From a virus: a stretch of 21,707 nt of DNA. Positions 3,929 through 21,503 of the stretch are shown here, one piece after another. The stretch covers positions 1 through 21,707 of IMG/VR virus record IMGVR_UViG_3300042261_000751; one strand, given 5' to 3'. Position numbers and translations under genes: made by a program. Under the pieces are notes generated by a model. That model was not told the DNA's origin, ran no database searches, and was given only the letters and a program-made list of their open reading frames with translations. The stretch's first letter is position 1. Each line of letters starts with the position of its first letter.

Positions 3929-6900
3929 CAGCCCCTCGCGTAGCCCGGCCCGCTGCGCAGCCGGTCAAGCTCGGCCAGCAATGGCCGGATCTTCTCGCGC
4001 ACAAGGTCCGCCAGCGCGCGCGGATCCGCCAGGGACCCGCGGGCGTCGATGTTGAGGGTGAGTGTCGCGCTTCCGCCGCCGGCCAGCATCGCGCGCGTGT
4101 CGGCCTGGCTGGTGATGCGGCCGGGGGCGTCGACGGTGTAGACCTCGGGCGGGTGGATCAGGTAGGCCCTGCCCGCTTCGACCGGGCCGCCCAAGGCGCG
4201 GGATTCGTAGGGATCGGAGCGCTCGTTCGCATACGAATAGGCCACGCCAGTCCGCAGCATCTCGGGGTAGATCGACGACCAGTAGTCGGGCACGGCGCCC
4301 GTTGCGGCGATCCGGTCGATCAGCCACGTATGTAGGCTGGCGGGAATGCCGCTTAACCACATTGTGAGATTCCCGCTGGGGTATCGGTCGGGTGTGGTGT
4401 CATGGGAGTAATCGAATTCTGGCGACAGGCCGAGGCTGGTGTTGTAGGCGTACCAGGCCAGCGCCTGGGATGCGTCCGCGTCGGTCTGCGCCGCCGCGAT
4501 CAACTGCGGCATGGACATCCCGGAATAGCGCCGGTAATTGGCGATCTGCCGATTCGCTGACGCCGAGCGGTCGCTGAGCCTCTCGGCCGGGGCAACGCTC
4601 TGTTGATAGCTCATATTCGCAAGACCGAGAATCACCGGAAGCATGACTGCGGCGGCCGGCCCCATCGCTGGCATAGCCGACACCGTTGCGCTCAGTTCGG
4701 TGGTCGCCAGGCCCGCCGCCGCGCCCGACGTGTAGAGGCCCCCTGCCGATGCGGCTGCGCCGGCGAGCGATCCGGCCGCGGCGCCACCGCCGGCGAGCGA
4801 TCCGGCCGCGGCGCTCAGTTCGGTGGTCGCCAGGCCCGCCGCCGCGCCCGACGTGTAGAGGCCCCCTGCCGATGCGGATGCGCCGGCGAGCGATCCGGCC
4901 GCGGCGCCACCGCCGGCGAGCGATCCGGCCGCGGCGCCACCGCCGGTTATGGCGTCCCAGGCGCTTACGGCCCCCGCGCTCAGCGCGCCGCCCGTCAGCT
5001 TGTCGGCCAGCCCGAGGATCGGGATCCCGGACAGTATGGCGGACCCACTTCCGCCGCTTGCGCTACTCTCGCCCCGCGCGCCGGAGGCGGTCGCGCCGGC
5101 GCCCAGTCCGCTCAGGAATCCCCCGCTCCCGCCGGAGAGGTAGGACAACGTTGCGCGCGCCAATTCCTGGGTTCCGATGCGCAAAAGGGCCTCGCCGAAC
5201 CGCCTAACCACGTCGGTCAGATTCTCGAAGCGCCCGGTGAGCACGTTGAAATACAGCTCGTCCAGCGATCGCGTCGCCGCGATCGCGAACTCTTTCGTGA
5301 TGTCCAAGATCGTCTGGTCGGTCGTCCGCCAGTCGCGCAGGGCGTACTCGAGGCCGAGCGTCATTTTGGCGAAGTAATCGTCGGTCGCGGCGAGCTGTTG
5401 GAGCATCAGGTCCTTGTGGCGCTGCGTCTCCTTGTCTCGCATCGTGTCGATGGCCTTCCACCGGCGCGTCTCAATATCGACAATCGCGGTCGCGGCCTCT
5501 TCTGCGGATAAGATGTCCATGCGCTCGGCCGCGCGCACGGCCTCCGCCTCGCGGTCCAGCGCTGCGAACTGCCCGCTCAGGTGCGATTCTCGCAGCCGGG
5601 ACATATCCTCGTATATTCTGACCTTGGTCAGGGCCGCCGCCCAGTCCGCATCCATTGACTCTTCTGCCACGGACACCCATCCGGCAATCTCGGCCTGCTG
5701 GACCTTCTCGACAAGCTTCCAGTGTTCCTCGAGGCGCTTCGCCTCGTCCTGGGCCGCCTGGATGTCATTCCTTTCCTGTTCTTCGATCGCGGCAATATGG
5801 CCCGCGGATTCTTGCTTGATTGCGGCGTCGGAGATGGCGCGCCGCCGATTGTCGGCCTCGAGCCGCGCCTTTGCCAACAGCGCCAGCCGCTCGGCGTCGG
5901 CCAGCTCGCGCTTGCGGGCGGCCTCGGACGGGGTCAGCTTGTTTTCTCGCTCGGCCATGGCGATCTCGGCCAGCGTCACGCCCTGCTTGGCCCGCAGTAG
6001 CTTTTCGGTCGCGTCCAGCTCGGCCTCGATCTTGGCCGCGCCCTCGGGCTGCGTGTCGGCGCGCAGCGCACCCAAGGCTGCCTGTTGCGCATTCATTTGC
6101 GCGGCGAGGAGGTCTCGCTGCAGCTCGCCGACGGTCTTGCGGGTGTCGATCTGGCCCGTCGACCCGGTGACGCGCGCGCCGCCCCCCCCCATCCGCCAAG
6201 CGCCCACATCGCTCGCCATGGATCCAGCGGGGAGCTGCCCGCGCAGCCGCCCAGTCGGGTCGATCTGTTCGAGGATTCTCGCGCGCTCCGCCGCGTCGAC
6301 GCTCATCCCGCTGGCCGGATTGAGCAGATTCGGGATCTCGCCGATCCACCGCGCCAGCAGCGTCACCGGCGCTATGATCCCGCCGCCGACGCTGATCTTC
6401 AGCCCCTCCCAGGCGTTGCCCAGATCCTTCAGCGCCAGGTTGAACTCGCGGGCCTTCTGAATGCCGGCCTCGTCCATGATCTTGCCGGCCTTCGCGTTCT
6501 CCTCGCCCAGCTCGCGGATCTTGCCCGCCCCCTGCTCGATGATGGGGATCATCTGGGTCCAGCCGCGCCCGAAGATCTCGCGGGCCAGACTGTTGCGCTC
6601 CAGCTCGTTCTTCACGCCGCTCAAGGCGTCGACCGTCTCATAGAACGTCTGCAGCCCGGTCTTGAGGCTGCCGTCCGCGTTGCGCGACGCGACCCCGAGG
6701 CGCAGCAGGGCGGGGGAGCCGTTCTCGATGGCGTTGGACATGAAGGCCAGGGACTGCTGGACGGCGTCGGAGGAGACGCCCAGGTCCTCGAGGCCGGTGA
6801 CGAGGATGGAGACCTCGCGGGCGGATCCGCCCGACAGGTAGGACAGGTCGCGCACCTGGGTGGCAAGGGCGGTGAACTCGGTGATGGCGCTATGGGCCGC

Positions 6901-8998: not shown

Positions 8999-9034
8999 GT
9001 CCCGCTCCTTTCGCCGCAGCCGTCAGCCGGCAGT

Positions 9035-10537: not shown

Positions 10538-10565
10538 CGTCGCTTTCGCTCCGGCCTGTACGAGT

Positions 10566-10706
10566 TATTAGTGATCAGTGGTCAGTCATCAGTCATCAGT
10601 CATCAGCGATCGGTGATCGGCGATCGGTAGCCGGGATCCCACTGATCGCTGATCGCTGATCGCTGATCGCTGGTTACTGGTTACTGATCACTGGTCACCG
10701 ATCACT
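10566..10706. repeat. Inverted heptamer array of the GATCAGT / GATCGCT type
   Basis: About 140 bp made of consecutive 7-bp units. The left part (10570-10628) runs through variants such as GATCAGT, CATCAGT and GATCGGT, a short centre contains GGGATCCC, and the right part (10641-10706) is TGATCGC repeated four times, then TGGTTAC twice and TGATCAC-like units. The right half is roughly the reverse complement of the left, so the element can fold into a long imperfect hairpin. It lies between the DUF1320 gene and a 58-residue gene and its right end contains that gene's stop codon. No protein-coding signal is visible in it. Confidence 0.85.
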
Positions 10707-10878
10707 TCCCCTTTTCCGTCTCCACCACCTTGGGCTTCTGGAGAGGCATGAACAGTTCCGGATGATACGCCTGCTCCGGGATGTCCAGGATCTCGCCCCG
10801 GCGAAATGCGATCCCCCAGAAGCCGCCATCGGGCAGCGGGATCATCCGCTCGCCGGAGAGCTTCGCTTTCACGCGCAT
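10702..10878 (-). CDS. Small 58-residue protein, unknown
   Basis: Short gene between the major head protein and the DUF1320 gene. It starts at an ATG at 10878 preceded by AGGAGG at ideal spacing. Sequence begins MRVKAKLSGERMIPLPD and contains GFWGIAFRRGEILDIPE, then a Lys-rich tail. The stop is at 10702, at the edge of the GATCAGT heptamer array. Short proteins of this kind often occur just after the capsid gene of Mu-like phages, but I recognise no family. The good ribosome binding site and non-shadow composition support it as real. A head-associated role is inferred from position only. Confidence 0.7.
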   Translation of the reverse strand: MRVKAKLSGERMIPLPDGGFWGIAFRRGEILDIPEQAYHPELFMPLQKPKVVETEKGK

Positions 10879-10896
10879 CGGATCCTCCTGGTCTGG

Positions 10897-10945
10897 CCGA
10901 TCGGACCAGTCGGACAGGTCAGACCCGTCCGACTGGTCCGACGGA
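10897..10945. repeat. Nonamer array forming a 15-bp perfect stem-loop
   Basis: Tandem 9-bp units of the GTCYGACNG type. The arms 10901-10915 and 10927-10941 are perfect reverse complements (TCGGACCAGTCGGAC against its complement), and the 11-base loop contains GGTC-A-GACC. It begins ten bases beyond the major head gene's stop on the minus strand and ends before the 58-residue gene. There is no T-run after it, so a canonical intrinsic terminator is not supported; it could protect the upstream capsid mRNA or simply be a mobile repeat. Confidence 0.8.
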
Positions 10946-10950
10946 GCCGC

Positions 10951-11856
10951 TTAGGTGTTGACCGTTTTCACGGCCTTCCAGGGGAGTAGGTATCCGGCGT
11001 TGTAGCTGCCTTCCGCCGAGTACAGGAACTCGCCCTTCTTGAACACGTGGTCTGAGGTCGGGCTGTCGAGCGCCACCAGGGCCGGCCGCTTGACCATGCT
11101 CAGGGCCAGGGGCTTGATCGGCCCGAACATGTTCAGCAGATACCAGTCGTTGGCGTCCGTCGCGGCCATGCGCGGGTCGACGACCACCTTCGCCGCCCCC
11201 ATCAGCATGTTGCTCGTGTTGCTGATGATGCTGGCGTTGAACGTCTGCTCGGCCACGTACTGCAGGCCGGCGGGCACGACCGCCACCAGGTCGGTCACCG
11301 GGTTCGCCGGCTCGCCCCGGTCGTTCTTGAAGCCCAGCAGCGCGGCGCGGGCCGCGGCGAAGTCGGTCGCGAACTGCGCCTGGGTGGTGCCGGTGCCGGC
11401 CAGCAGGTTGTCGATGTTGCCCGAGTCGCCCACGACGCGGGTGTCGGCGAAGAACGCCGTGCCGTCATAGGCCAGGCCCGAGGTCCCGCCGGTCAGTAGG
11501 GCGCTAATCAGCGCGTCGATGTGGAGCTTGCCCACCTGGGCCAGCTCCTGGATGCGCGGCTTGTAGATTCCGAGCTGGTCCCGCTCGATGGCGGTCCGCT
11601 TCACGCCGATCGTGGACTCCCATTCCTTGTTCGTGATGGCGTAGCGGTACCGGCGCAACCCCTCGACGCTCTTCTCGTCGAGCCACTCCTTCATGGCCGG
11701 CGGCGCGCCGAGCCAGGACAAATCGAGGAAGTCGCTGTTGTTGGGAAACTCCGTCGCGAGCCCTTCCATGGGGCTCGTGAGGCCGGCATACGCCTCCAGG
11801 AAGATGGCCTGGAAGTCGGTCCGGATCGCGGCCAGGGTATCGGCACTGACGATCAT
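10951..11856 (-). CDS. T: Major head protein, Mu gpT-like
   Basis: 301 residues. MIVSADTLAAIRTDFQAIFLEAY is the classic start of the Mu gpT family (major capsid, HK97 fold), followed by MKEWLDEKSVEGLRRYRYAITNKEWE, which contains the conserved W-x-x-E, R-x-Y region, and a central KLHIDALISALLTGG with the C-terminal FKKGEFLYSAEGSYNAGYLLPWKAVKT. The length matches the family. Strong AAAGGAG ribosome binding site before the ATG at 11856. It follows the protease/scaffold and capsid-associated genes, as expected. Just upstream lies a GGAATGC inverted repeat that leaves the ribosome binding site intact. Confidence 0.92.
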   Translation of the reverse strand: MIVSADTLAAIRTDFQAIFLEAYAGLTSPMEGLATEFPNNSDFLDLSWLGAPPAMKEWLDEKSVEGLRRYRYAITNKEWESTIGVKRTAIERDQLGIYKPRIQELAQVGKLHIDALISALLTGGTSGLAYDGTAFFADTRVVGDSGNIDNLLAGTGTTQAQFATDFAAARAALLGFKNDRGEPANPVTDLVAVVPAGLQYVAEQTFNASIISNTSNMLMGAAKVVVDPRMAATDANDWYLLNMFGPIKPLALSMVKRPALVALDSPTSDHVFKKGEFLYSAEGSYNAGYLLPWKAVKTVNT

Positions 11857-11884
11857 GGTGCGCTCCTTTCAGTCGTTGTCGAGT

Positions 11885-11965
11885 TCGGAATGCGGAATGC
11901 GGAATGCGGATTGGGGACCCGTCCCCCGCCGCAGATTCCGCACTCCGCATTCGCCATTCCGCATC
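11885..11965. repeat. Palindromic GGAATGC heptamer element
   Basis: Four tandem GGAATGC-type heptamers (11887-11911), a perfect 6-bp hairpin GGGGAC-CC-GTCCCC at 11913-11926, then an inverted degenerate array of the same heptamer (GATTCCGCACTCCGCATTCG-like, 11934-11965). It fills the gap between the capsid-associated gene (stop 11972) and the major head gene (start 11856). The arms pair imperfectly. No coding signal is seen in it. Confidence 0.85.
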
Positions 11966-11971
11966 CCTCCG

Positions 11972-13009
11972 CTAGACCTTCGTCGCGGCGACGGCGGTCG
12001 GGTTCGCGTAGGTCACGACCAGGCGCGTGCGGCCGGCGGTGCCGGCCCCCACGCTGGTGACCACGCCGATCACGTTCCGGGCGGCGGCCGAGTAGAGCAC
12101 CCGCTGCTCGGACGCGATGTAGGCGCCCGCCTTCCCGCCGGGGTGCTCGATGTTGTTGACCTCGCCGGCCAAGAGGTCGGTCGCCTTCAGGTCGGTCGCC
12201 GTGAAAAACCCATTCGCGGAGGAGCCGTCGCCCACCACCAGGCTGGCGCTCGTCGCCGCGTCCCACAGGGCGATGCCGTGGACGGCCACGTCCAGAATCT
12301 GGCTGCCGGCCGGGAGTGCGATCGTCCCGGTGTAGGTGCCCGCGCCGGTCTCGGTGAACGTCACCTCCTCCATCACGACATGGTAGGCCGCGGCGTTGAT
12401 GCCGTCGCACTTGTTCAGTTCGGCGGCGGTGGCGGTGACCGACTGGATCGGCAGGGCGCTCGGCCCGCACAGGATCCAGCCCGAGGTTGCACTGACGTAC
12501 TGCACCAGGATCCCGGCCGCGATGCCATTGGTCGACGTGTCGTCGAACGTCTGGTCATCCTTCACGTACATCATCTTCCCGACGTCGGTGATCGCGATGC
12601 TGGTCGCGTCCAGGAGGAAGATCCCGGTCCGCACCCGGACGTTGTACGTTCCGCTGGCGGCCGAGCCGGCGGCCACCTGCTCCTCGGCCACGCCCACGCA
12701 GCGGTAGTTCGCGGTATCCGCGGCGGGGACCGCGTAGCCGGTGGACGGGTTGATGCACACCATGCCGCCCTTGTAGATAGTGACGGCGGTCTGGACGGGG
12801 TAGCTCTTGATCCCCGGCCACTCCTTCATTTTCGTCTCGCGGTCGGCGGACAGGGCCCCGACGGCCAGTGGCAGGCCGCCCAGGCCGATCGCGAGGCTCT
12901 CCCATGGCGCGGCGGCGACGACGGCCGCCACCCCGCACAGCGCCACCAGCAGGACCGCGGCGACCATCAGCCCCCGCGGCGTCTTCATCCGATTCCACAC
13001 TCTGCGCAT
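11972..13009 (-). CDS. DUF2190-like capsid decoration protein with N-terminal membrane segment
   Basis: 345 residues. Residues about 14-34 (GLMVAAVLLVALCGVAAVVAA) form a hydrophobic segment after a basic start (MRRVWNRMKTPR), a signal-anchor or signal-peptide layout with Ala-rich sites behind it. From about residue 55 the sequence looks like DUF2190-type capsid decoration or cement proteins: VTIYKGGMVCINPSTGYAVP, then YRCVGVAEEQV, with the rest beta-rich (VVTSVGAGTAGRTRLVVTYANP). Such proteins decorate the capsid surface. The membrane segment is not normal for that role and is the odd feature. AAAGGAG lies six bases before the ATG at 13009, which supports this start over later ATGs (residues 8 and 15). 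Function otherwise inferred from order. Confidence 0.65.
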   Translation of the reverse strand: MRRVWNRMKTPRGLMVAAVLLVALCGVAAVVAAAPWESLAIGLGGLPLAVGALSADRETKMKEWPGIKSYPVQTAVTIYKGGMVCINPSTGYAVPAADTANYRCVGVAEEQVAAGSAASGTYNVRVRTGIFLLDATSIAITDVGKMMYVKDDQTFDDTSTNGIAAGILVQYVSATSGWILCGPSALPIQSVTATAAELNKCDGINAAAYHVVMEEVTFTETGAGTYTGTIALPAGSQILDVAVHGIALWDAATSASLVVGDGSSANGFFTATDLKATDLLAGEVNNIEHPGGKAGAYIASEQRVLYSAAARNVIGVVTSVGAGTAGRTRLVVTYANPTAVAATKV

Positions 13010-13026
13010 CGCGTGCTCCTTTCCGT

Positions 13027-13069
13027 GTCGGACCGGTCTGAGGGGTCCGACGAGTCTGACGGTCGGACG
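13027..13069. repeat. Nonamer GTCYGACNG array between protease/scaffold and decoration genes
   Basis: Tandem 9-bp units with an 8-bp inverted pair GTCGGACC (13027-13034) and GGTCCGAC (13044-13051), loop of nine bases. It is the same family as the arrays at 10897-10945 and 15462-15508. It lies in the gap after the protease/scaffold stop (13073) and ends just before the ribosome binding site of the decoration gene. No T-run follows on the minus strand. Confidence 0.75.
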
Positions 13070-13072
13070 CGG

Positions 13073-13600
13073 TTAGGCCTGCGCCTTCCGCGCCTTGAAC
13101 GCTGCGAACGTCACCCCGAGCTGCTCGTGCAGGCCATGGTGCGCCGCGTACTCGGCCTTGAGGGCCGCGTCGGGATCCGCCGCGCCGCCCGGGGCGTGCT
13201 CGCCCAGCGGGACGACCTTCGGTAGGCTCTTGAGCAACCCCATCAGGATCTCGCCCGCCGGCGTGGGCGCCGCGCCCTCGGCGAACGTCACCACGGCCTC
13301 GGACAGCATCGCCTGCTCCAGCACCTGCGGCACCCCTGCGTCGCGCCACGCGGGCAGGAACGTGCCGGCCGCGATGCCGGCCTCCACGAACGCCGTGACC
13401 TCGGCGTGCACGGCGGCGGCACGGGCCGCGCGCGCGGCCGCGGCATCGGCCTCGGCCACCGCCTTGGCCGCGGCGGCCTGCTCGCGCGCGCGGACCTGGT
13501 CCTCGGTGAATTGCCCGGCCGTGGATGCCGGGGGCTCCTCGCCGGGCACGGGAATCCCAGCCTCGGCGAAGAGCGCCTTGAGCCGTTCCCAGAACTTCAT
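13073..13600 (-). CDS. Nested capsid scaffold protein (Mu Z-like) from internal start
   Basis: In-frame internal start inside the protease gene at codon 204 (MKFWERLKALFAEAG). The ATG at 13600 is preceded by GGAGGAG at seven-base spacing, one of the best ribosome binding sites in the window and with no other job inside a coding region. The product would be 175 residues, Ala/Glu-rich and helical (EQAAAAKAVAEADAAAARAARAAAVHAEV), the composition expected of an assembly scaffold. Mu itself makes the scaffold Z from an internal start in gene I, and lambda makes Nu3 inside C. Function is assigned by that analogy and the sequence evidence. Confidence 0.7.
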   Translation of the reverse strand: MKFWERLKALFAEAGIPVPGEEPPASTAGQFTEDQVRAREQAAAAKAVAEADAAAARAARAAAVHAEVTAFVEAGIAAGTFLPAWRDAGVPQVLEQAMLSEAVVTFAEGAAPTPAGEILMGLLKSLPKVVPLGEHAPGGAADPDAALKAEYAAHHGLHEQLGVTFAAFKARKAQA

Positions 13601-14209
13601 CGGCGCTCCTCCATCCCCCTCCGCAAATTGCTCATCCTCGACCAGGGCGCGGAGGGATGCCACCTGGTCCAGGATGGCCTGCCGCTTGTCGGCGACGGCG
13701 TCGTCGTCCAGCAGTCCATAGATCCGCTCGCACAGCAGGCTGCAGCCGTCCAGGACGCGCATGATGGCGGCCTGGCGGTCCAGCGCCTCGGCGATCGGCA
13801 TCTCGAGATCGATCGCCTCGAAGGTCCCGGCCGCGAACCGCACCGGGGTCATGCCCCTCACGGCCGGGGTCGCGCCGCCCAGAAATCCCACGTGGCGCAG
13901 GTACGGTTTGCCGGTCCCCTCAAAGGCGGGAAACACGGCCATTGAGATATGTTTGAACGCCCCCGCGCGGACCATCCGCTGGAGCTCGGGCGACACCTGC
14001 CGCACCTTGGCCCAGAGCTGGTCGCGAATGACGCGGAGCTGCGCGACCCAGCCGTGCGCCGGGCTGTCGGTGTCGGGGTGGCCCAGGACCAGCGGGGCCT
14101 CGCAACGGGCCGGATCGTAGTCCGCCGCGATGGACTTCAGATCCTCCACCGTGATCGGCATCTTCCCGGGGTACGCCCCGGCCCGGAAGATCTGGATCCA
14201 GGTATTCAT
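13073..14209 (-). CDS. I: Mu I-like head maturation protease with C-terminal scaffold
   Basis: 378 residues. The N-terminal domain has PGKMPITVEDLKSIAADYDP, then APLVLGHPDTDSPAHGWVA, AGAFKHISMAVFP and LRHVGFLGGATPAVRGM, the landmarks of the Mu I (peptidase U35) prohead protease family. It would cut the scaffold and mature the capsid. Residues 204-378 are Ala-rich and helical, the scaffold half. The gene overlaps the small upstream gene by ATGA at 14209. The same region provides a separate scaffold start at 13600. Its position between the Mu F-like protein and the capsid genes supports the role. Confidence 0.85.
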   Translation of the reverse strand: MNTWIQIFRAGAYPGKMPITVEDLKSIAADYDPARCEAPLVLGHPDTDSPAHGWVAQLRVIRDQLWAKVRQVSPELQRMVRAGAFKHISMAVFPAFEGTGKPYLRHVGFLGGATPAVRGMTPVRFAAGTFEAIDLEMPIAEALDRQAAIMRVLDGCSLLCERIYGLLDDDAVADKRQAILDQVASLRALVEDEQFAEGDGGAPMKFWERLKALFAEAGIPVPGEEPPASTAGQFTEDQVRAREQAAAAKAVAEADAAAARAARAAAVHAEVTAFVEAGIAAGTFLPAWRDAGVPQVLEQAMLSEAVVTFAEGAAPTPAGEILMGLLKSLPKVVPLGEHAPGGAADPDAALKAEYAAHHGLHEQLGVTFAAFKARKAQA

Positions 14210-14400
14210 CGCGCCCCCCTCCCCTCGGCAGGCTCGGGACGGCGCCCGATCAGTGCATGCCGCTTCGCGATACGGACGGCGCCGCCCAGGTCGCGGCGGC
14301 GGATCTGGCGGGTGACCGTGCCGACGACATACTGCCGGACGCGGGACGATTGGTCCCCCAGCACCTGCCGCCGGATCGCCTTGGTCTTCTTGGCGTTCAT
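14206..14400 (-). CDS. Small basic protein, unknown
   Basis: 64 residues, rich in Arg and Lys (MNAKKTKAIRRQVLGDQSS, then RQIRRRDLGG, AKRHALIGRR). ATG at 14400 overlaps the Mu F-like stop as ATGA and is preceded by AAGGAG; the TGA overlaps the protease start in the same way. Precise overlaps on both sides show that it is a real gene in a coupled operon. I do not recognise a family. A basic protein between the Mu F-like protein and the protease could bind nucleic acid or capsid parts, but this is speculative. Small conserved ORFs at this place occur in other phage head operons. Confidence 0.7.
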   Translation of the reverse strand: MNAKKTKAIRRQVLGDQSSRVRQYVVGTVTRQIRRRDLGGAVRIAKRHALIGRRPEPAEGRGAR

Positions 14401-15458
14401 CCCATCTCCTTGCGCGCCTCGGCCTCGCGCAGGCCGGCGGTGCGGATCGCGGCCGCCGCGTTGCCGGCGAAGCCCGGGTCGGGTTCGACCGGCCGCCCGT
14501 CGATCTTCGGCACCGCGCGGCGCGGCCGGATCCCGTCGCGCTCGGCCTCGACCGTGCCGATCGCGGTGACCGTGCAGCGGCAGTTGTAGCCGTTCGGCGG
14601 CCACCAGGTCTCCCACGTCGGGTCGTCGCGCTTGGCGATAAAGCCGTTCATGGCCGCGTGCTCGGCCCGCACCCGCGCGTCGCCCACGGTGTGGTACTCG
14701 AACAGCGGGAACGCCTCGACCACCTCGGGGGCGTGGTACATCTCGTACCGGCCCGCGTTGTAGGCGGTCTGGATGTTGGTCTCGAACACGGTGCGCGCGT
14801 GGAACGGATTCACGGCGCGGATCCCGCCGGCCTCGGCCGCGGCGTCCAGGCCGTCGCGGAACGCCTTCAGCGTCCACCCCTCGGTCAGCGCCTCGTCCAC
14901 CAGGTCCTGGACGATCGCCACCGCCGCGACCGTCTCTTGCCGCGCAATGGTGAAGGCGCGGCTGCGATACGCCTCGATGATCCGATCGAAGGCCGATCGG
15001 GTCAGCGGGACCTTGCCCTCGAACAGCCGGATCGCATCCTTGGGCGGCAGGGGCTCGACGCCGAGAGCGCCGATCTCGGCGAATGCGGAATGCGGAATGC
15101 GGAATGCGGAATTGGAGAATCGGAGCGCCACACCCTGGCCCGGAAACGCATCATCTACCGGGGCGATCGGGACGCGGGCGGCGCGGGCCTGGCGCGCGAC
15201 CTGGGCGCGGCCGAGCAGATCGCCGGTCACCATCGCGGCCAGCAGCGTCGAGAGCAAGGCGCCGAGCGCCTGCCGATCGACGATCGCGAGCGGATCGCGG
15301 ATCGCGGCCCGGACCTGGGTGAGGTCGCCGGCGCGGCGGACGGCGGCCAGGACGTCGCGGGCCAGGACGTCGATCGCGGCGGCGCCCCGCTCGATCGCCC
15401 CGTCCACCAGGGCGCCGCTCTCTTGCACCATCCGTGTGAGCTCACGCGCGCTAGACAT
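14397..15458 (-). CDS. F: Mu F-like head morphogenesis protein
   Basis: 353 residues from an ATG at 15458 that overlaps the portal stop by eight bases (ATGTCTAG). Residues 219-300 carry the family signature: FHARTVFETNIQTAYNAGRYE, then YHTVGDARVRAEHAAMNG, then WWPPNGYNCRCTVTAI. This is the Mu gp30/SPP1 gp7 family, minor head proteins bound to the portal inside the prohead. The N-terminal 110 residues are helical. Residues about 115-126 (SNSAFRIPHSAF) are the translation of the GGAATGC heptamer array at 15081-15117 and do not look like family sequence, so this is an in-frame insertion between domains. The frame runs further upstream, but that part lies within the nonamer array and has no ribosome binding site. 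Confidence 0.88.
   Translation of the reverse strand: MSSARELTRMVQESGALVDGAIERGAAAIDVLARDVLAAVRRAGDLTQVRAAIRDPLAIVDRQALGALLSTLLAAMVTGDLLGRAQVARQARAARVPIAPVDDAFPGQGVALRFSNSAFRIPHSAFAEIGALGVEPLPPKDAIRLFEGKVPLTRSAFDRIIEAYRSRAFTIARQETVAAVAIVQDLVDEALTEGWTLKAFRDGLDAAAEAGGIRAVNPFHARTVFETNIQTAYNAGRYEMYHAPEVVEAFPLFEYHTVGDARVRAEHAAMNGFIAKRDDPTWETWWPPNGYNCRCTVTAIGTVEAERDGIRPRRAVPKIDGRPVEPDPGFAGNAAAAIRTAGLREAEARKEMG
15081..15117. repeat. GGAATGC heptamer array, in frame inside the Mu F-like gene
   Basis: Tandem GGAATGC units. On the coding strand they read as TTCCGCA-type repeats and encode NSAFRIPHSAF inside the head protein. The same array type occurs at 11885-11965 and 16857-16893. The surrounding coding sequence keeps its frame, so the insert is tolerated in the linker between the N-terminal helical and central domains. 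Confidence 0.85.
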
Positions 15459-16845
15459 CGGACCCCGTCCGACTGGTCTGACGGGTCCGACCCGTCTGAC
15501 CGGTCCGCCGCGCGCGGATCGCCGCGAACAGCTCGGCGTCCGCCGCCTCGAAGGCGCGATCGAACTCGCCGAACGCCGCGTCGCCCCCATCCGCGCCGCC
15601 CGCGGCTCCCAATTCGGCGGCGGCCAGCGCCTGCGACGTGAGCACGTCGTCCTCGCCCGCGGGCTCGGGGATCCCGTACTTGCGCTGGATGTAGCTCTTC
15701 GGGATCGGCGTCCCCATGATCTGGAGCGTCCGGTCGCGAAGGGCCAGCGTCCGGAGATCCTCGGCCCGCTCGAGATTGAAGACGAACTGGGGGTAGTCCG
15801 TGACGAGGAAATTCCAGTCGACCAGCCACGGGATGAGTTGCCCGTTGATCACGTCGGCCAGGCTGGCCGCGTCCCCCTCCAGGATGTCCTGCCGCACGTC
15901 GGCGTGGACGCGGCCCAGGGCATAGGAGCCGGTCCCGTCCCCCTGGCCGGAGGTGAGGGTCTGGCCCAGGACGATCTGGGATTTCTTTTGGTCCAGGTAG
16001 GTCAGGAAATCCCGGTAGGTGTCGATGCTGCCGCGCCGCTGAGCCTCCAGGAACTCGGCCGACATGGTGTCGGGGATGACGACGGCCGTCTCTTGCTGGA
16101 TCGCGTTCAGGGCGGACAGCAGGGCCCGCTTGGCGGAGTCGTCCGACCCGGGCGGGTACTTGCCCACCGGGGTGGGGGCGCCGAATTTCTCGGTGTAGAG
16201 GGCCCAGAACTTGATGGCGTTCCGGCTGAACCAGGCGTACCAGTACAACGCCTGGCAGACGCCGGTGCCGTAGGGATTCTCGTGCTCCCCCTCGAACGAG
16301 TGCACGAGGAACTTGCGCGGCGGGACCGACGTTCCGGCGGACAGGTCGCGATCGGTGAGGAGCCGGAGCTGCCCCTGCGTGCCGAAGACGAAGCGGCGCT
16401 GGTGGCGGGAGCGGATGTCTACGATCCCGATCCGGCCGTCCCGCGTGGGGCCCCACAGGATCTCGCTGACCGCGTAGCCCATGCCGATGGCGTCGGTCAA
16501 CTCGTACAGGTCGCGGGTGAACCCCGGCACGCGCAGCAGGGCCGCGCCGACAAACTCGGCCGCGGCCACGTCGCGGGCGTCGGCGCCGGCCGGGACGATC
16601 TCCCAGTCCAGGCCAACGAGCGCCTTGCGGCGGGTGCGCATGTCGGCGTAGATCTGCGCGTCCTTCCGGATCGTTTCCTTGTAGAGATCGATCCCGAGGC
16701 CGCCGGCCTGGGTGCGCAGGATCGGGTCCGGGTTGAGCTGGGTGGACCCGGTGTAGTATCCCAGCGACCGCGCGAAGCTGTCGTCGCCGACGGCCGCGAC
16801 CTCGACCTGGTGCTCGGGGGCCAGCTTCTCGGCGAAGGTAATCAT
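15451..16845 (-). CDS. DUF935 portal protein (Mu gp29-like)
   Basis: 464 residues. Landmarks of the DUF935 portal family: YKETIRKDAQIYADMRTRRKAL, LDWEIVPA, MGYAVSEILW, then HSFEGEHENPYGTGVCQALYWYAWF and KFWALYTEKFGAPTPVGKYPPG, LVDWNFLVTDYP. Portals form the dodecameric ring through which DNA is packaged and ejected. The start ATG at 16845 overlaps the zinc-ribbon stop (ATGA) with GGAGGG just upstream, immediately next to a GGAATGC array. The last residues (TGQTGRTRQTSRTGSD) are the translation of a nonamer array, a repeat-derived C-terminal tail. Such tails face the clip or crown of the portal and may be tolerated. Confidence 0.92.
   Translation of the reverse strand: MITFAEKLAPEHQVEVAAVGDDSFARSLGYYTGSTQLNPDPILRTQAGGLGIDLYKETIRKDAQIYADMRTRRKALVGLDWEIVPAGADARDVAAAEFVGAALLRVPGFTRDLYELTDAIGMGYAVSEILWGPTRDGRIGIVDIRSRHQRRFVFGTQGQLRLLTDRDLSAGTSVPPRKFLVHSFEGEHENPYGTGVCQALYWYAWFSRNAIKFWALYTEKFGAPTPVGKYPPGSDDSAKRALLSALNAIQQETAVVIPDTMSAEFLEAQRRGSIDTYRDFLTYLDQKKSQIVLGQTLTSGQGDGTGSYALGRVHADVRQDILEGDAASLADVINGQLIPWLVDWNFLVTDYPQFVFNLERAEDLRTLALRDRTLQIMGTPIPKSYIQRKYGIPEPAGEDDVLTSQALAAAELGAAGGADGGDAAFGEFDRAFEAADAELFAAIRARRTGQTGRTRQTSRTGSDV
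15462..15508. repeat. Nonamer GTCYGACNG array encoding the portal C-terminus
   Basis: Five 9-bp units (GTCCGACTG, GTCTGACGG, GTCCGACCC, GTCTGACCG, GTCCGCCGC), with a small palindrome GACGGGT-CCG-ACCCGTC in the middle. On the minus strand they encode about 15 of the last residues of the portal protein, rich in Thr, Gly, Gln, Arg and Ser. It belongs to the same family as the arrays at 10897 and 13027. Confidence 0.8.
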
Positions 16846-17378
16846 CGGGCGCCCTCCGAATGCGGAATGCGGAATGCGGAATGGGGAATGGGGATCCCGG
16901 TGACCATCGAGCCGATCGCGATCATCGCCGCAACCTGGTGGGCCTCGGCGGCCGTCAGGCGGACCCGGGGGCGCGCCTGACGCCGCTGGCGCACAGCCCG
17001 TGCCATGGCCTTGGCGCCGCGCCGCCGCGCCTCGCTATGCCACCAGGCCCGGCAGGCGTCATCGCAGAAGCGGCGCACATGCCCGCGCCCGGAGGTCGGC
17101 AACGGGGCCCCGCACGCCGCACAGACCCCCCCTACAAAGCCGTGCACGGCATTATCTTGCCCCTCCGATGGCCGACCGGCTACCCTGGTAGCCGTCCGCG
17201 CCGCCTCAGATAATCTGGAGCCAGCGGCAAACCAACAACCGACACCGGCAACCCGGCCATCGCAATCCGCTGGACCGTTGTTCATTGTCGGTTGTCCGTT
17301 GTCGGTTGTCAGTTGTTCATTGGCTGCCATCATCGCCGCGCCCCCATGGGCCTCCTGGGCCGTCCGGTCAGAATCCAT
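16842..17378 (-). CDS. Zinc-ribbon protein with repeat-encoded segments
   Basis: 178 residues from an ATG at 17378, which has GGGGAG upstream and overlaps the end of the large terminase by 11 bases. A zinc ribbon is seen at residues 86-109: C86-x2-C89 (CAACG) and C105-x3-C109 (RRFCDDACR), the layout of small FCDDAC-type treble-clef or ribbon fingers. Then comes a basic helix (AMARAVRQRRQARPR) and a small helical part (AEAHQVAAMIAIG). Residues 20-52 (EQLTTDNGQPTMNNG) are the translation of a TTGTCGG-family element, and residues 162-176 (IPHSAFRIPHS) that of a GGAATGC array. So more than a quarter of the protein is repeat-derived. Role unknown; a DNA- or packaging-linked job is suggested only by the neighbours (terminase and portal). 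Confidence 0.65.
   Translation of the reverse strand: MDSDRTAQEAHGGAAMMAANEQLTTDNGQPTMNNGPADCDGRVAGVGCWFAAGSRLSEAARTATRVAGRPSEGQDNAVHGFVGGVCAACGAPLPTSGRGHVRRFCDDACRAWWHSEARRRGAKAMARAVRQRRQARPRVRLTAAEAHQVAAMIAIGSMVTGIPIPHSAFRIPHSEGAR
16857..16893. repeat. GGAATGC heptamer array at the zinc-ribbon C-terminus
   Basis: Tandem GGAATGC units, the last ones decaying to GGAATGG. The array lies within the last codons of the zinc-ribbon gene (encoding IPHSAFRIPHS) and stops directly beside the portal's ribosome binding site. It is in the same orientation as the array at 15081-15117. Confidence 0.85.
17219..17336. repeat. TTGTCGG-type dispersed element, copy 1
   Basis: About 118 bp with one side of CAACCGACA-like units, a core (CGCAATCCGCTGG) and a tandem array of TTGTCGG, TTGTCCG, TTGTCGG, TTGTCAG, then TTGTTCA, ending in TTGGCTG and CATCATCGC. 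The arms are inverted repeats. A second copy at 21398-21503 matches it in core and in boundaries. It lies inside the zinc-ribbon coding region and is translated there. Confidence 0.85.
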
Positions 17379-18903
17379 CAGACGCTCCCCGGCCGGATCC
17401 GGCCCCGGCCGGCACCCTCGCCCCTCGCACCTTGAACGCGGCATCCGTCATCCCCGCCCCGGCGCCGACCGCCTCGTAGGCGCCGGCAGCCACGCGGCGC
17501 TGGCCGGAGGCCTGGTGCTCGATCACCGCCCCCAGGGTGCTGGCCGCCTGGCAGGCGAGGGCTAGGGCCCAGAAGTGGTCCGCGTGGCCCGTCGCCTCGG
17601 ACCGCTCGGCGTCGAAGCGGAAGTGGCCGGTGGTGGTGGGGATACGCTTGATGCTGTGCAGGCTGGCCCGGATCGCGGGCACGGCCGGGATCCTGACCTG
17701 CCGGTCCTCGATCGTCTGGCGCAGGCGGCCGGCGAGCGCCTCCTTATTGGCCTGGCTGAAGTCCACCCCCTCGACGCGCCAAGCGCCGAAACGGTCTGCC
17801 GCGGCCTCGGCCAGGTTCAGGCCCAGACCGGATCGATCGATGCACGCGCGGCGCACGCCTCCCGATCCCAAGACCGCGAACAGCACGGCGTGCTGGACGG
17901 CGAACGGGGTATTGCGCATGGCGAGCGTGGCGACCGACACGAGCGTGGGCGTCTCGCGGCGGAGCAGCCAGAGAACCGAGAGGTCGCGCCGCCGGGCAAT
18001 GTCGAGGCCGAGATACCCCGTCTCGTCCGCGGCGATCCAGCCGCCGATGGCCTCCGCGGCGGCGCGGTCGATGGCCTCGGGATTGCCCCGGTCCGCCCGG
18101 TAGGCGGCCTCCGCCGCGGCCAGGGATGCCGCCAGCGGGGCGGGGACGATTGGCAGCTCGGGATCCTCGACGGCCGCGAGCTGGTCGAACGTCAGCCATG
18201 CGGCGGCCTCGTCGAGGAACTCGCACAGGTACTCTTGCTGCCAGGCCTCCTCGTCACCCAAGGCCTCTTTCAGCTGCACGGGGGTTGTCGCGTTGCCCTG
18301 GTCGTCCCGCAGGACCAGGCCCCCGGCCACGGCGTCGTAGATCGTCACCCGGCGACACGAGTAGGCCGCATTCCCTGCGGCCTGCTTCGCGGCCCAATCG
18401 GTCCACAGATCGTAAGCCTTGTTGGTCTTGCCCTGCGGCGTGGTGCAAATGGTCAGGCGATAGCCGCGGGTGATCGTGGGGAAGAGCGCCGTCCAGATCG
18501 CGCGGCTGTCGCGGTGGAAGGCGAACTCGTCCAGCAGCACGTTGGCCGAATGCCCGCGCGCCGTGGCGGGGTTCGCGGGGAGCCCGGTGATCTTGGCCCC
18601 GGGAAGCTGGAGCACGTGCGAGGTGAAGCGGCCCTCGTCCACCGCGTACTCCTCGGTCAGGACCGACACCGCCGCGCCGATCGCGCGGGCATGGGTCGCG
18701 CCCTTCTCGATCAGCTCCTTCGACTGGCGCTCGCCGGCCGACAGCCAGACCCAGTTCTGCCGACGCTCGATTGCGTTCAACACGCCGTCCAGCGACTCGC
18801 CGAAACTCTTGCCGGTCTGCCGCGCCTGGAGGCGGAAGCGGAACCGGGCGCGGTCCCCGATCCCGGCGCGCTGGTACTCGGTCAGCGGGACGATCGTCTG
18901 CAT
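17368..18903 (-). CDS. Terminase large subunit (Mu gp28-like)
   Basis: 511 residues; the packaging motor and headful nuclease, acting at the portal. ATPase: Walker A-like RQTGKS at residues 28-33 (LQARQTGKSF), Walker B VLLDEF with D125 and E126, and motif III TICTTPQG at 151-158. Nuclease (RNase H fold): GLDIARRRD (D301), ACIDRSGLG (D356) and GHADHFWA (D442). All key residues are present. The C-terminus (about 470-511) is Gly/Ala/Arg-rich and low in order. The ATG at 18903 is three bases after the small-terminase stop; the ribosome binding site is weak (AGGG), so coupling is probable. Matches Mu gp28 in order and length. Confidence 0.93.
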   Translation of the reverse strand: MQTIVPLTEYQRAGIGDRARFRFRLQARQTGKSFGESLDGVLNAIERRQNWVWLSAGERQSKELIEKGATHARAIGAAVSVLTEEYAVDEGRFTSHVLQLPGAKITGLPANPATARGHSANVLLDEFAFHRDSRAIWTALFPTITRGYRLTICTTPQGKTNKAYDLWTDWAAKQAAGNAAYSCRRVTIYDAVAGGLVLRDDQGNATTPVQLKEALGDEEAWQQEYLCEFLDEAAAWLTFDQLAAVEDPELPIVPAPLAASLAAAEAAYRADRGNPEAIDRAAAEAIGGWIAADETGYLGLDIARRRDLSVLWLLRRETPTLVSVATLAMRNTPFAVQHAVLFAVLGSGGVRRACIDRSGLGLNLAEAAADRFGAWRVEGVDFSQANKEALAGRLRQTIEDRQVRIPAVPAIRASLHSIKRIPTTTGHFRFDAERSEATGHADHFWALALACQAASTLGAVIEHQASGQRRVAAGAYEAVGAGAGMTDAAFKVRGARVPAGAGSGRGASDGF

Positions 18904-18906
18904 AGA

Positions 18907-19551
18907 TCAGCCCTGCGCTTCGGGCGCCAGCCCGTACATGGCCCGGATCCGGCTGGCCACATCGGCCGGCAAGGCGCCGGCGGCGGCCAGATCCTCAACC
19001 TGCTTGTCCGCGGCGCGCAGCCGCGTCTCCATCGCCGCCAGCTTGCGCTCGAGCAGCTCCACGCGCTTGCGGTCTAGGGCGACCTGGGCGGCGCGGATCT
19101 CGTTGCGGTCGTGCGCGATGCCGAGGCGCACCACCTCGGCCGGATCCTCGGCCCCGATCTTGGTCAGCGCCAGCAGCCGCTGCTGCTGCAGGAGCTGCTT
19201 CGCGGCCGCCACCAGGTCGGGGCTCTTGTCGCCGTCCTGGAGGAGCCGGCCGACGATCGCCTCGGCCTCCTCGCGCGCCTGGTCCTCGATCCGCAGCGTG
19301 CTGGCCCAATAGGCGTAGTAGCGGGAGAGCCCGCTGTCGTGCCACTGAATCCCGTACTGCGTCGCCAGCGCGGCGAGGACCTCGGCCCAGGTGCGGCCGG
19401 CGCCGAGGCGCTTTTGCGCGAACTCGGCGTGCAGGAAATCCAGCGCCTCGCGCGGGGCGCCCCGGAGCCCCTCGAATGTGCGCGTGTTGTCCGCCCGCGG
19501 CCTACCCACGGCGTCCCCCGTCTCGGCGCTCGGCTCTCGGCGCATGACCAC
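18907..19551 (-). CDS. Terminase small subunit, DUF3486 (Mu gp27-like)
   Basis: 214 residues by the GTG at 19551 (or ATG at 19545). It sits straight before the large terminase and is DUF3486-like: a helix-turn-helix-like N-terminus (RTWAEVLAALATQYGIQWHDSGLSRYYAYW) and long helices (RAAQVALDRKRVELLERKLAAME) ending RIRAMYGLAPEA. It would recognise the packaging site on phage DNA. The start is doubtful: neither GTG nor ATG has a good Shine-Dalgarno sequence, and the N-terminal 20 residues are unlike the family. A GTG at about 19510 with GGGGGA upstream is an alternative. A 21-codon leader frame begins at 19567 in TGATG overlap with the preceding gene and could couple translation. Confidence 0.8.
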   Translation of the reverse strand: MVMRREPSAETGDAVGRPRADNTRTFEGLRGAPREALDFLHAEFAQKRLGAGRTWAEVLAALATQYGIQWHDSGLSRYYAYWASTLRIEDQAREEAEAIVGRLLQDGDKSPDLVAAAKQLLQQQRLLALTKIGAEDPAEVVRLGIAHDRNEIRAAQVALDRKRVELLERKLAAMETRLRAADKQVEDLAAAGALPADVASRIRAMYGLAPEAQG

Positions 19552-19566
19552 GGAAGAAGGCGTCCA

Positions 19567-19902
19567 TCAGCGCACCTCGATCCCGCGATCGTTCTTCGTG
19601 CCCTCGAGGATCGCCAGGCCGTCGTGCGTTACGCGCCAGAACAGCAGCGTCGGACCCTTGGGCCCGGCGGGCTGGACGGTCTTGTAGGTCACGCATCCGA
19701 CGTCCTTCAGATAGGTCAGGACCGAGCCGGAGAGCTGGCTGCGCAGCATCGGATGGCCCAGACGCGCGAGCCAGGTAAGGAGGAGGGATTCCTCCATGTA
19801 GACCCCCAGGCTCTCCTCGTCCGGCGAGCGCTCCCGGTCCAGGTGCGCCTTCAGGATCTCGAGGGCCTTGCCTCGCGCGATCGCCAGCTCAACGGGATCC
19901 AT
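19567..19902 (-). CDS. Small winged-helix-like phage protein
   Basis: 111 residues (MDPVELAIARGKALEILKAH). Residues 28-100 look like a winged-helix domain: ESLLLTWLARLGHPMLRSQLSGSVLTYLKDVGCV and the wing TLLFWRVTHDGLAIL. Small proteins of this kind lie between the DUF2730 and DUF3486 genes in Mu-like prophages (the VpaChn25_0724 type, recalled from the family name). It may help terminase or bind DNA; function is not established. The ATG at 19902 has GGAGGGGGGAG upstream, an excellent site, and overlaps the preceding gene by 14 bases. Confidence 0.7.
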   Translation of the reverse strand: MDPVELAIARGKALEILKAHLDRERSPDEESLGVYMEESLLLTWLARLGHPMLRSQLSGSVLTYLKDVGCVTYKTVQPAGPKGPTLLFWRVTHDGLAILEGTKNDRGIEVR

Positions 19903-20170
19903 GCTCCCCCCTCCGTTCCAATGCCTCGATCTTCCCGATGATCAACTGCTGCCCAACTAGGACCTCGTCTAGCTTCCGGTCGTCTTGGCTGGTGTGGGTC
20001 TGGATCGCCTCGGCCATTTTCGCCATCGATACCGCCTGCGCCTGCTGCGCGGCGATAAACTGCGCGATGCACTCGGGCGGCCGGGACAGCAGCCGGTAGA
20101 TGCCGAGCAGGATGATCAGCCCCGGCCCCCAGGCCACCGCCCACTTGGCGACGTCGGCCCATTCGTTCAT
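19889..20170 (-). CDS. DUF2730-type membrane / coiled-coil protein (Mu gp25-like)
   Basis: 93 residues. A short N-terminal region, one membrane helix at about 11-30 (AVAWGPGLIILLGIYRLL), then helical Gln/Ala-rich sequence up to residue 90 (AQQAQAVSMAKMAEAIQ ... LVGQQLIIGKIEALERR) that may be coiled coil. Mu-like phages encode this DUF2730 type between the lysis genes and the terminase. An alternative is an Rz-like spanin, which also has an N-terminal anchor and a coiled coil, but there is no second outer-membrane partner visible. There is no strong Shine-Dalgarno before the ATG at 20170. Gap of 46 bases after the holin stop. Confidence 0.7.
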   Translation of the reverse strand: MNEWADVAKWAVAWGPGLIILLGIYRLLSRPPECIAQFIAAQQAQAVSMAKMAEAIQTHTSQDDRKLDEVLVGQQLIIGKIEALERRGEHGSR

Positions 20171-20216
20171 CGATCGGCCCGGCGGACGACCGTCAGCAGG
20201 GCCGCCGCGCGCGCGG

Positions 20217-20627
20217 TCACTTGCCGCGCCCCATGGCCACCCACATCCGTTGTCCGAACAGGAACGAGAAGACCGGCATCATCATCCCCTCGTTGTAGGC
20301 CCGGACGAACTCGCGGATCGGCTCGGGCACCGACAGGAACACCACGCACAGCGTGCCGACCACGCCCCCCAGGATGATCAGCCCCGCGGCCACGTAGCGG
20401 AACGCCGCCCGCAGGTCCGCCACCCACCGACTGATTTCGCCGGTCGGCCGGTCCAGCTCGGCGATCGCCTTGAGGCGATCGGTCTCGGCCGCCATGAGCT
20501 GGATCGCCTCTTGGACGTTCGCCGGATTCGCCCCGGCCCCGCCGGTGATCCGACTGAAGACCGCGCGGACCCCGTCCGCCAGCACCGGCACGAACGCCGG
20601 AATCAGCGCCAGCAATGCGGCCGGCAT
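20217..20627 (-). CDS. Holin with three membrane segments (3TM type)
   Basis: 136 residues from an ATG at 20627 that shares one base with the endolysin stop (TGATG). The frame continues upstream but without support. First hydrophobic segment MPAALLALIPAFVPVLADG, then an amphipathic region (VQEAIQLMAAETDRLKAIAELDRP), the family-typical ISRWVADLRAAFRYVAAG, a membrane segment GLIILGGVVGTLCVVFLSV, and a last hydrophobic part PVFSFLFGQRMW. This matches the 3TM holin family also found in gene-transfer agents and Mu-like phages. It would open the inner membrane to let the endolysin out. The neighbouring endolysin supports it. Confidence 0.82.
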   Translation of the reverse strand: MPAALLALIPAFVPVLADGVRAVFSRITGGAGANPANVQEAIQLMAAETDRLKAIAELDRPTGEISRWVADLRAAFRYVAAGLIILGGVVGTLCVVFLSVPEPIREFVRAYNEGMMMPVFSFLFGQRMWVAMGRGK

Positions 20628-21022
20628 CACGCCCCATCCTTTCTCGTCGAGGCGCGCCAGTCGCGCCACTCGAAATGTGGGCGGTCGATCGGCGTCAGGA
20701 ACCGCCCGCCCCACTGCAGGCCCAGCGCCAGGCCGATCGCTCCGAGCTCGTCCCAGGCCCCCGGCCGCGGTTCCTCGTACAGGGTCTCGGCGAACGCGAC
20801 GTCGAACGCCAGACCGGCGTTGTGGGGGGACTCGCCGGGGCGGGCGTTGGTCACGATCCGCCCCGGCACACTGCGGCCTTGGTCATAGAGGTCTTGCTGC
20901 TCGTCGCGCGTGCGGAATGTGGTGGTGAGAACAAGGGGCAGGCCGGCGGCCTTCGCCGCCGCAAGCAGCGCGGCGCACAGGGGCCGGATCCGGGGATCGA
21001 GATCCTCAAGGCGTCGGCTCAT
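20627..21022 (-). CDS. Endolysin, M15 family metallopeptidase (L-alanyl-D-glutamate peptidase type)
   Basis: 131 residues. The zinc and catalytic residues are all there: SPHNAGLAFD gives H67 and D74, and DRPHFEW gives D113 and H116, with the seven- and three-residue spacings known from Ply500-type M15C enzymes. FRTRDEQQDLYDQG (residues 36-49) is the typical start of the domain. No signal peptide, so it needs the holin for export. It would cut peptidoglycan stem peptides at lysis. The domain fills the protein, with no cell-wall-binding module. It begins at 21022, about 50 bases downstream of a promoter-like sequence. Ribosome binding site moderate (GGAG, 14 bases). Confidence 0.9.
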   Translation of the reverse strand: MSRRLEDLDPRIRPLCAALLAAAKAAGLPLVLTTTFRTRDEQQDLYDQGRSVPGRIVTNARPGESPHNAGLAFDVAFAETLYEEPRPGAWDELGAIGLALGLQWGGRFLTPIDRPHFEWRDWRASTRKDGA

Positions 21023-21076
21023 GGCGTCCCGTTCTCCATTAGCGCCGCTGATATCGTGGCGTGCGTAGGATAAGGT

Positions 21077-21105
21077 ATCATAATACCGACGTTCCGGCGC
21101 CGCAA
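21077..21105 (-). promoter_or_regulatory. Candidate sigma-70-type promoter for the lysis/late genes
   Basis: TTGCGG (21105-21100) and TATGAT (21082-21077) with exactly 17 bases between them, in one of the few AT-rich patches of the window. The -10 lies inside GGTAT-CATA-ATACC (21074-21087), a 5-bp inverted repeat that could also be an operator. The start would be near 21070, about 48 bases before the endolysin ATG. The -35 overlaps the end of the upstream gene. This is based on sequence pattern only. Confidence 0.4.
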
Positions 21106-21374
21106 GCGGTTTTCCCTTGACACCCCACCCACGCCGTGTCGTCCAGCCGCCGGATCCCGTCCACCAGGGCGCCGATCCGCGCCACCGCCTGCTCGGCCGC
21201 CTGCAGCGTGGGGTCGATCCGGATCGTCCCCGGCATCTCCATCTGCAGCCGCAGGTGGAGCGGGGCGACGATGTTGTTCAGCTCGTGCTCGGCCCACAGC
21301 CGCACGCGGTGCAGATCCGCCGGCGCCAGCGCCGCCAAGTCCAGATCGTCCAAGGTCGGGACGCGCGTCGTCAT
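21078..21374 (-). CDS. Small unknown protein, 98 residues
   Basis: MTTRVPTLDDLDLAALAP at an ATG with GGGGAG upstream. Helical segments (LHRVRLWAEHELNNIVAPLHLRLQ; LQAAEQAVARIGALVDGIRRL) suggest a small alpha-helical protein; two cysteines near the end (VGCQGKTACG). I do not recognise it. The frame also stays open up to an ATG at 21500 that overlaps the preceding gene as ATGA, but residues added by that start are the translation of a TTGTCGG-type element (KPTTDNGTM ... PVSVVGL), so the later start with its own ribosome binding site is preferred. It precedes the lysis genes. Confidence 0.65.
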   Translation of the reverse strand: MTTRVPTLDDLDLAALAPADLHRVRLWAEHELNNIVAPLHLRLQMEMPGTIRIDPTLQAAEQAVARIGALVDGIRRLDDTAWVGCQGKTACGAGTSVL

Positions 21375-21397
21375 CGTTGTCTCCCCGCAAAGCCTAG

Positions 21398-21503
21398 AAG
21401 CCAATGTCAAGCCGACAACCGACACCGGCAAACCGGCTAGCGCAATCCGCTGGGCCATGGTCCCGTTGTCGGTTGTCGGTTTGAATTTGGCTGTCATCAT
21501 CGC
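21398..21503. repeat. TTGTCGG-type dispersed element, copy 2
   Basis: About 106 bp, aligned over its whole length with 17219-17336. Common parts are CAACCGACACCGGCAA, CGCAATCCGCTGG, the TTGTCGG units and the final CATCATCGC. Fewer heptamers account for the shorter length. It overlaps the end of the 66-residue gene (the four-base ATGA overlap) and sits upstream of the 98-residue gene. Confidence 0.85.

Follow-up and report, generated by a model that had tools for sequence, protein, structure and literature searches.

Short-unit repeat arrays, often in inverted pairs, at the gene junctions of a Mu-like phage

The late genes of a Mu-like phage carry nine tracts of short tandem repeats, and we consider it somewhat probable (roughly 60%) that these tracts are junction-dwelling elements of the heptamer LSSR/STRR kind, which would grow through slippage and gain their second arms through strand switching. 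The DNA analysed is a virus record of 21,707 bases, here termed the window, in which these genes lie on the minus strand. Where bacterial heptamer repeats come from, and why this length is favoured, has been an open question since such repeats were first noticed. Array-rich phages with relatives at many distances provide a small, fast-evolving system in which array birth, change in unit steps, core inversion and replacement of one family by another can be watched at homologous sites.

Repeat tracts and gene junctions in the window

The window encodes, on the minus strand, a Mu-like portal protein (PF06074; 15451..16845) that served as the anchor for finding relatives and a Mu gpT-like major head subunit (PF10124; 10951..11856), with Mu F (PF04233) and a terminase also among the late-gene products. 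The nearest kin found were short IMG/VR contigs, L040 and L006, with portal proteins 69% and 67% identical to that of the window, and the best bacterial matches had at most 48% identity. The terL genes of L006 and L040 have an insertion of ~945 bp (L006:1268-2212; L040 about 2016-2966), at the position of window terL residue 440, that is missing from the window terL. The L006 insertion keeps the reading frame, begins with Cys and has GN-S at its end, which makes it an intein candidate, and NCBIfam yielded only a weak, DnaB-intein-like match. The tape-measure gene of the window, itself composed of GGCGAGCGATCCGGCCGC repeats, contains a 123-bp tandem duplication (4688-4937) with 99% identity.

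Nine tracts of four repeat families, all to the right of 10.5 kb, had been noted and were borne out, with every family far above chance; all are given here on the minus strand. The GATCAGT-type heptamers form tract A (spacer 10538..10701, repeats 10563-10706), an inverted pair in the g13/g12 spacer whose array itself supplies the g13 stop codon. GGAATGC heptamers form an inverted pair in the g15/gpT spacer (tract C; spacer 11857..11971, repeats 11884-11967) and two single arms, one in frame within muF (tract E, 15080..15114; SAFRIPHSAF) and one at the 3' end of a small Zn-finger-like gene, shortly before the portal start (tract G, 16857..16894). Repeats of 9 bp make up tract B (spacer 10879..10950, repeats 10900-10945), a GTCNGACNN hairpin 3' of the major capsid gene (gpT) and ahead of an AGGAGG ribosome site and ATG, tract D (spacer 13010..13072, repeats 13027-13067), with GTCNGAC repeats in the g16/g15 spacer, and tract F (15467..15509), at the 3' coding end of the portal gene and directly upstream of the muF start. 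The TTGTCGG family comprises tract H (17219..17336), close to the terL/small-gene junction, at which the start of the gene is uncertain, and tract I (21399..21503) in the g28/g27 spacer. A single element of about 105-118 bp is present twice, as tracts H and I, which have arms, core and some flank in common (alignment score 96 vs 26 for the best shuffle), and their core had no exact match among viral contigs.

Strong period-7 arrays numbered five in the window vs 0.01 per order-3 Markov surrogate. The dinucleotide shuffles gave expectations of 0.12 for GTCNGACNNGTCNGAC (11 matches observed), 2.66 for GGAATGCx2 (18), 0.22 for CAGTNATCx2 (14) and 0.09 for TTGTCGGx2 (6), and the observed count was matched by no shuffle for any of the four families. 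A short tandem unit repeated for longer than chance, as in heptamer LSSR/STRR, was found for the three 7-bp families and the one 9-bp family, the 9-bp tracts scoring low individually and being real only when taken together as a family. In 1-10.5 kb there was no comparable array of 7- or 9-bp units, in agreement with the original prediction. The spacer at 8999-9034 contains a degenerate run of CTGNCGG, perhaps decayed and related to the CTGCCCG heptamers seen at L040:460-491 and 669-698, within or beside a small-terminase-like gene.

On the coding strand, the layout at junctions is stop codon, array, ribosome site and ATG. All five measured gene-to-gene spacers of at least 60 nt are filled by arrays (A, 164 nt; B, 72; C, 115; D, 63; I, 122), and the array-free junctions among those listed are all of 55 nt or less. 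Tracts F and G lie within the last codons of the upstream gene, directly ahead of the following start, and tract E is the only one inside a gene, an exception to a distribution that is otherwise intergenic or at gene ends. The proposed confinement of the repeats to the right half is real, but it follows the location of the longer gene junctions: the left half is array-free because junctions there overlap or are short, and the window alone is compatible with either the arrays or the longer junctions having come first.

Inverted pairing had also been proposed as the common layout and was strong in tracts A, B, C and I, weak in D, F and H, and absent from the single arms E and G. Each family has one strong hairpin, with fold z scores, computed against mononucleotide shuffles, of -6.2 (A), -6.5 (B), -4.9 (C) and -6.6 (I). 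Strong hairpins from four unrelated repeats, in the order stop codon, hairpin, ribosome site, ATG, would also be expected of phage control elements, that is, junction hairpins under selection as transcript terminators, processing sites or insulators, or as controls on translation. At the tract B site, behind its capsid gene, relative L028 has a hairpin-like spacer that is not an array; this spacer and the published TAACTGA repeats that abut start codons (PMC4679880) are consistent with such a role. This explanation is nevertheless quite unlikely, as some junctions of near relatives lack the elements, some tracts are single arms that form no hairpin, arms often match imperfectly, and T-run terminators are missing. 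The tracts gave no Rfam match at gathering score, and a known structured RNA family was rejected on the same ground.

Arrays in related and other phages

Comparison with relatives identified the tracts as insertions. In muF, the array adds 36 bp in frame relative to L006 and L040, which lack it; it adjoins a CCGCATTCGC stretch whose counterpart in these two phages (CCGCGTTTGCGG and similar) already resembled one unit. In place of the 115 nt of the g15-gpT spacer (tract C) in the window, L028 has 24 nt and L007 has 40 nt, both without an array, and at the tract A site (g13-g12) of L028 the genes adjoin without a spacer. At the portal 5' junction, three related phages possess three different repeats: GGAATGC in the window, an inverted TCGAACC pair with ATGGCTG-like units in L006, and a GATTACGCAGATT-type repeat of 9-10 bp in L040. 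Another short-unit family was seen in the distant Mu-like relative L041 (920-5488), with several CACGGATT-type arrays of 9 and 10 bp.

Exact 24-base arrays were found in 20 viral stretches for GGAATGC, 7 for TCGAACC, 10 for TTGTCGG and 48 for GATCAGT, and in 3 for the reversed GGAATGC control; the array-bearing contigs span several phage types as classified by terminase, portal and transposase families. Several unrelated heptamer families with one layout in one genome, and unrelated repeats at the same junction in relatives, could be the product of a dedicated, sequence-blind copying machine that writes fixed-length units as inverted pairs. This is very improbable, since no enzyme was identified, unit-step change is explained by slippage, and the families recur across genomes above the reversed-sequence control and share cores, which suggests descent. 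A phage or host process writing inverted pairs of 7-bp units at junctions whatever their sequence, so that the layout is kept while the family is replaced, is very improbable. The original prediction of a common copying mechanism that acts on unit length was not upheld, as slippage and strand switching at inverted arms account for the observations. Slippage alone does not account for the preference for 7 over 8 or 10.

Some of the GATCAGT contigs form a group of Mu-like phages that encode Gam, a terminase and an endolysin; from their metagenome numbers they are probably from peat, and they are here called peat phages. At most of their junctions, an element composed of (CAGTRAT)n, a core with AAAGGCAAAA and (ACTGATT)n extends from just past the stop codon to just before the next start, and in L237 an element is present at 10 of 11 listed junctions. 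Neighbouring array pairs in this set were inverted in 66 cases vs 34 on the same strand, a mixture that counts against the preferred explanation. The arms within an element match each other better than they match the arms of other elements (permutation p 0.009), as strand switching would lead one to expect. Whole-unit length change between relatives, as in heptamer LSSR/STRR, was observed in L196 and L215 (about 93% identical), which differ by seven 7-bp indels, all within arrays; this result comes from one pair of peat phages. No 7-bp indels were found outside arrays in the phage pairs compared. In the same pair, the core at L196:11762 has the opposite orientation in L215, between flanking genes that remain collinear (score 143 inverted vs 73 in the same direction), and a single 50-bp tandem copy of arm and core distinguishes L206 from L223. 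Elements at shared sites are the rule among peat phages at 75-78% identity, and these sites say little on descent because most junctions are filled.

A complete element is present in L202 and absent from L239, and this pair, together with the two copies of one element at tracts H and I, the AAAGGCAAAA core common to the peat-phage elements and the constant polarity of GGAATGC pairs, would suit non-autonomous (MITE/REP-like) mobile elements that a transposase moves whole, with the heptamer arms as its binding sites. We consider this alternative unlikely. Inverted arms are present. No clear target-site duplication was detected at the L202/L239 site or the muF site, GGAATGC cores vary among copies in G015, and the bacterial transposase genes described below argue against it. 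Two further candidates were rejected: a CRISPR-like array, as the cores sit between arms that face each other, unlike the regular spacers of direct repeats, and an assembly artefact, as the arrays recur in relatives and in independent metagenomes.

Array periods and Y1 transposases in bacterial genomes

Array periods were sampled from 570 kb of G002, an unrelated bacterial MAG with a 39% portal relative. The arrays numbered 33 for period 6, 44 for period 7, 5 for period 8, 35 for period 9 and 1 for period 10, with almost none in surrogates, so that in this sample the predicted excess at 7 and 9 was recovered together with an excess at 6, while 8 and 10 were rare. The 6-bp arrays (AATCGT, ACGAGC) and 9-bp arrays (CCTATAGGT-like) of the sample belong to few families and the 7-bp arrays to many. 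Period-7 arrays of G002 fall into several superfamilies and their pairs were inverted in all eight cases (8:0 vs same-strand), as were those of G015 contigs (13:0). Inverted pairing was not seen for periods 6 and 9 in G002 and is a feature of period 7. Unrelated units with a common length and inverted layout, as originally proposed, are found in a bacterial MAG as well as in the window and other phages.

Gene interiors were significantly depleted of arrays in the GGAATGC, TTGTCGG and GATCAGT phage sets and in G002, where periods 6, 7 and 9 all avoid them; the TCGAACC contigs showed no significant depletion in genes and yielded no pair that passed the test. Coding constraint as the source of the 6- and 9-bp excess was rejected, because those G002 arrays also avoid gene interiors.

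REP/BIME sequences with RAYT (TnpA-REP) are short intergenic hairpins, often in inverted pairs; each REP is one hairpin of about 20-40 nt, located close to a RAYT gene. In support of transposase-moved elements, the three GGAATGC-bearing genomes are rich in Y1_Tnp matches (13, 11 and 5), and the 13 of G002 were the highest among 40 genomes, most of which have three or fewer. The Y1 genes of G002 carry their own REP hairpins, however, and a period-7 array lies within 1 kb of only 1 of the 11. The suggested association with a TnpA-REP gene failed across the 22 gene neighbourhoods examined, in which ordinary REP hairpins flank the Y1 genes and heptamer arrays are not enriched; TnpA-REP as the driver was rejected, as REPs were found in place of heptamers. 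In G002 (L245, L246 and L248), classic REP hairpins such as AGCGCTGAAAGCGCG were seen on either side of RAYT-like genes for Y1 transposases. No RAYT-type gene was identified among the window proteins scanned, and the heptamer arrays are neither REP-like nor RAYT-linked.

Proposed mechanism and known heptamer repeats

In the slippage and strand-switching explanation that we prefer, a typical element consists of tandem 7-bp (or 9-bp) units, a short core and then the same array inverted, and its position between a stop codon and the next ribosome site would place a hairpin in the transcript. Arrays may be seeded at gene ends by copying of dispersed elements or from chance seeds, and would then grow and shrink in whole units by replication slippage, with the second arm and the orientation of the core arising through strand switching between inverted arms. 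Copying of whole elements would disperse them, and persistence at gene ends may reflect the little coding sequence that is damaged there. Position, hairpin potential, absence from relatives, change in 7-bp steps, dispersal of entire elements inside one genome and a single core flip in place were observed; this order of events and this origin of new families we infer. Any benefit, which we can only guess at, might lie in separating or protecting transcripts or in partial termination, and if active in transcripts the elements would form a simple intergenic hairpin code in transposable phages.

The kind of repeat is already known (LSSR/STRR, TAACTGA and Xanthomonas GGGAATC), though poorly explained, and in the present phages its common layout is unusually clear. 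Heptamer repeats are indeed known from heterocystous cyanobacteria, as first noted for this DNA, but they are not confined there and are known well beyond them (PMC4692102, PMC4679880). A 7-nt excess among long simple sequence repeats was found in many bacteria, with slippage proposed (Mrazek 2007, as summarised in PMC4679880); the likeness of these LSSR and of cyanobacterial STRR to the present arrays lies in the unit-length excess at 7, and the summarised accounts describe no inverted-pair layout, phage junctions or replacement of families at a fixed site. The literature searched, with subscription papers outside its scope, held no phage report of this layout, and the openly searchable part gave no description of several unrelated families at phage junctions, unrelated repeats at one junction or core inversion.

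Xanthomonas GGGAATC and Nostoc GGGGATT heptamers are mostly intergenic, dispersed and nearer the end of the upstream gene (Rehm et al. 2015, PMC4692102), with 70-75 inverted convergent pairs of GGGAATC per Xanthomonas genome (PMC4692102). In those genomes there is a single G-rich family, with a proposed quadruplex and none on two plasmids checked (PMC4692102), whereas here several unrelated units occur, and in phages. The direct TAACTGA repeats known from Beggiatoaceae, Cyanobacteria and Bacteroidetes abut start codons (MacGregor 2015, PMC4679880), show indels in 7-nt steps and are absent from near relatives (PMC4679880). TAACTGA is a rotation of ACTGATA, a variant within the CAGTNAT family of tract A. 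No TAACTGA run occurs in the window, where the CAGTNAT-type units of tract A end about 24-29 nt from the ATG, and the peat phages fit the TAACTGA type better. The TAACTGA repeats are mostly direct (one inverted in the focal genome) and chromosomal, whereas those described here are inverted pairs with a core in Mu-like phages.
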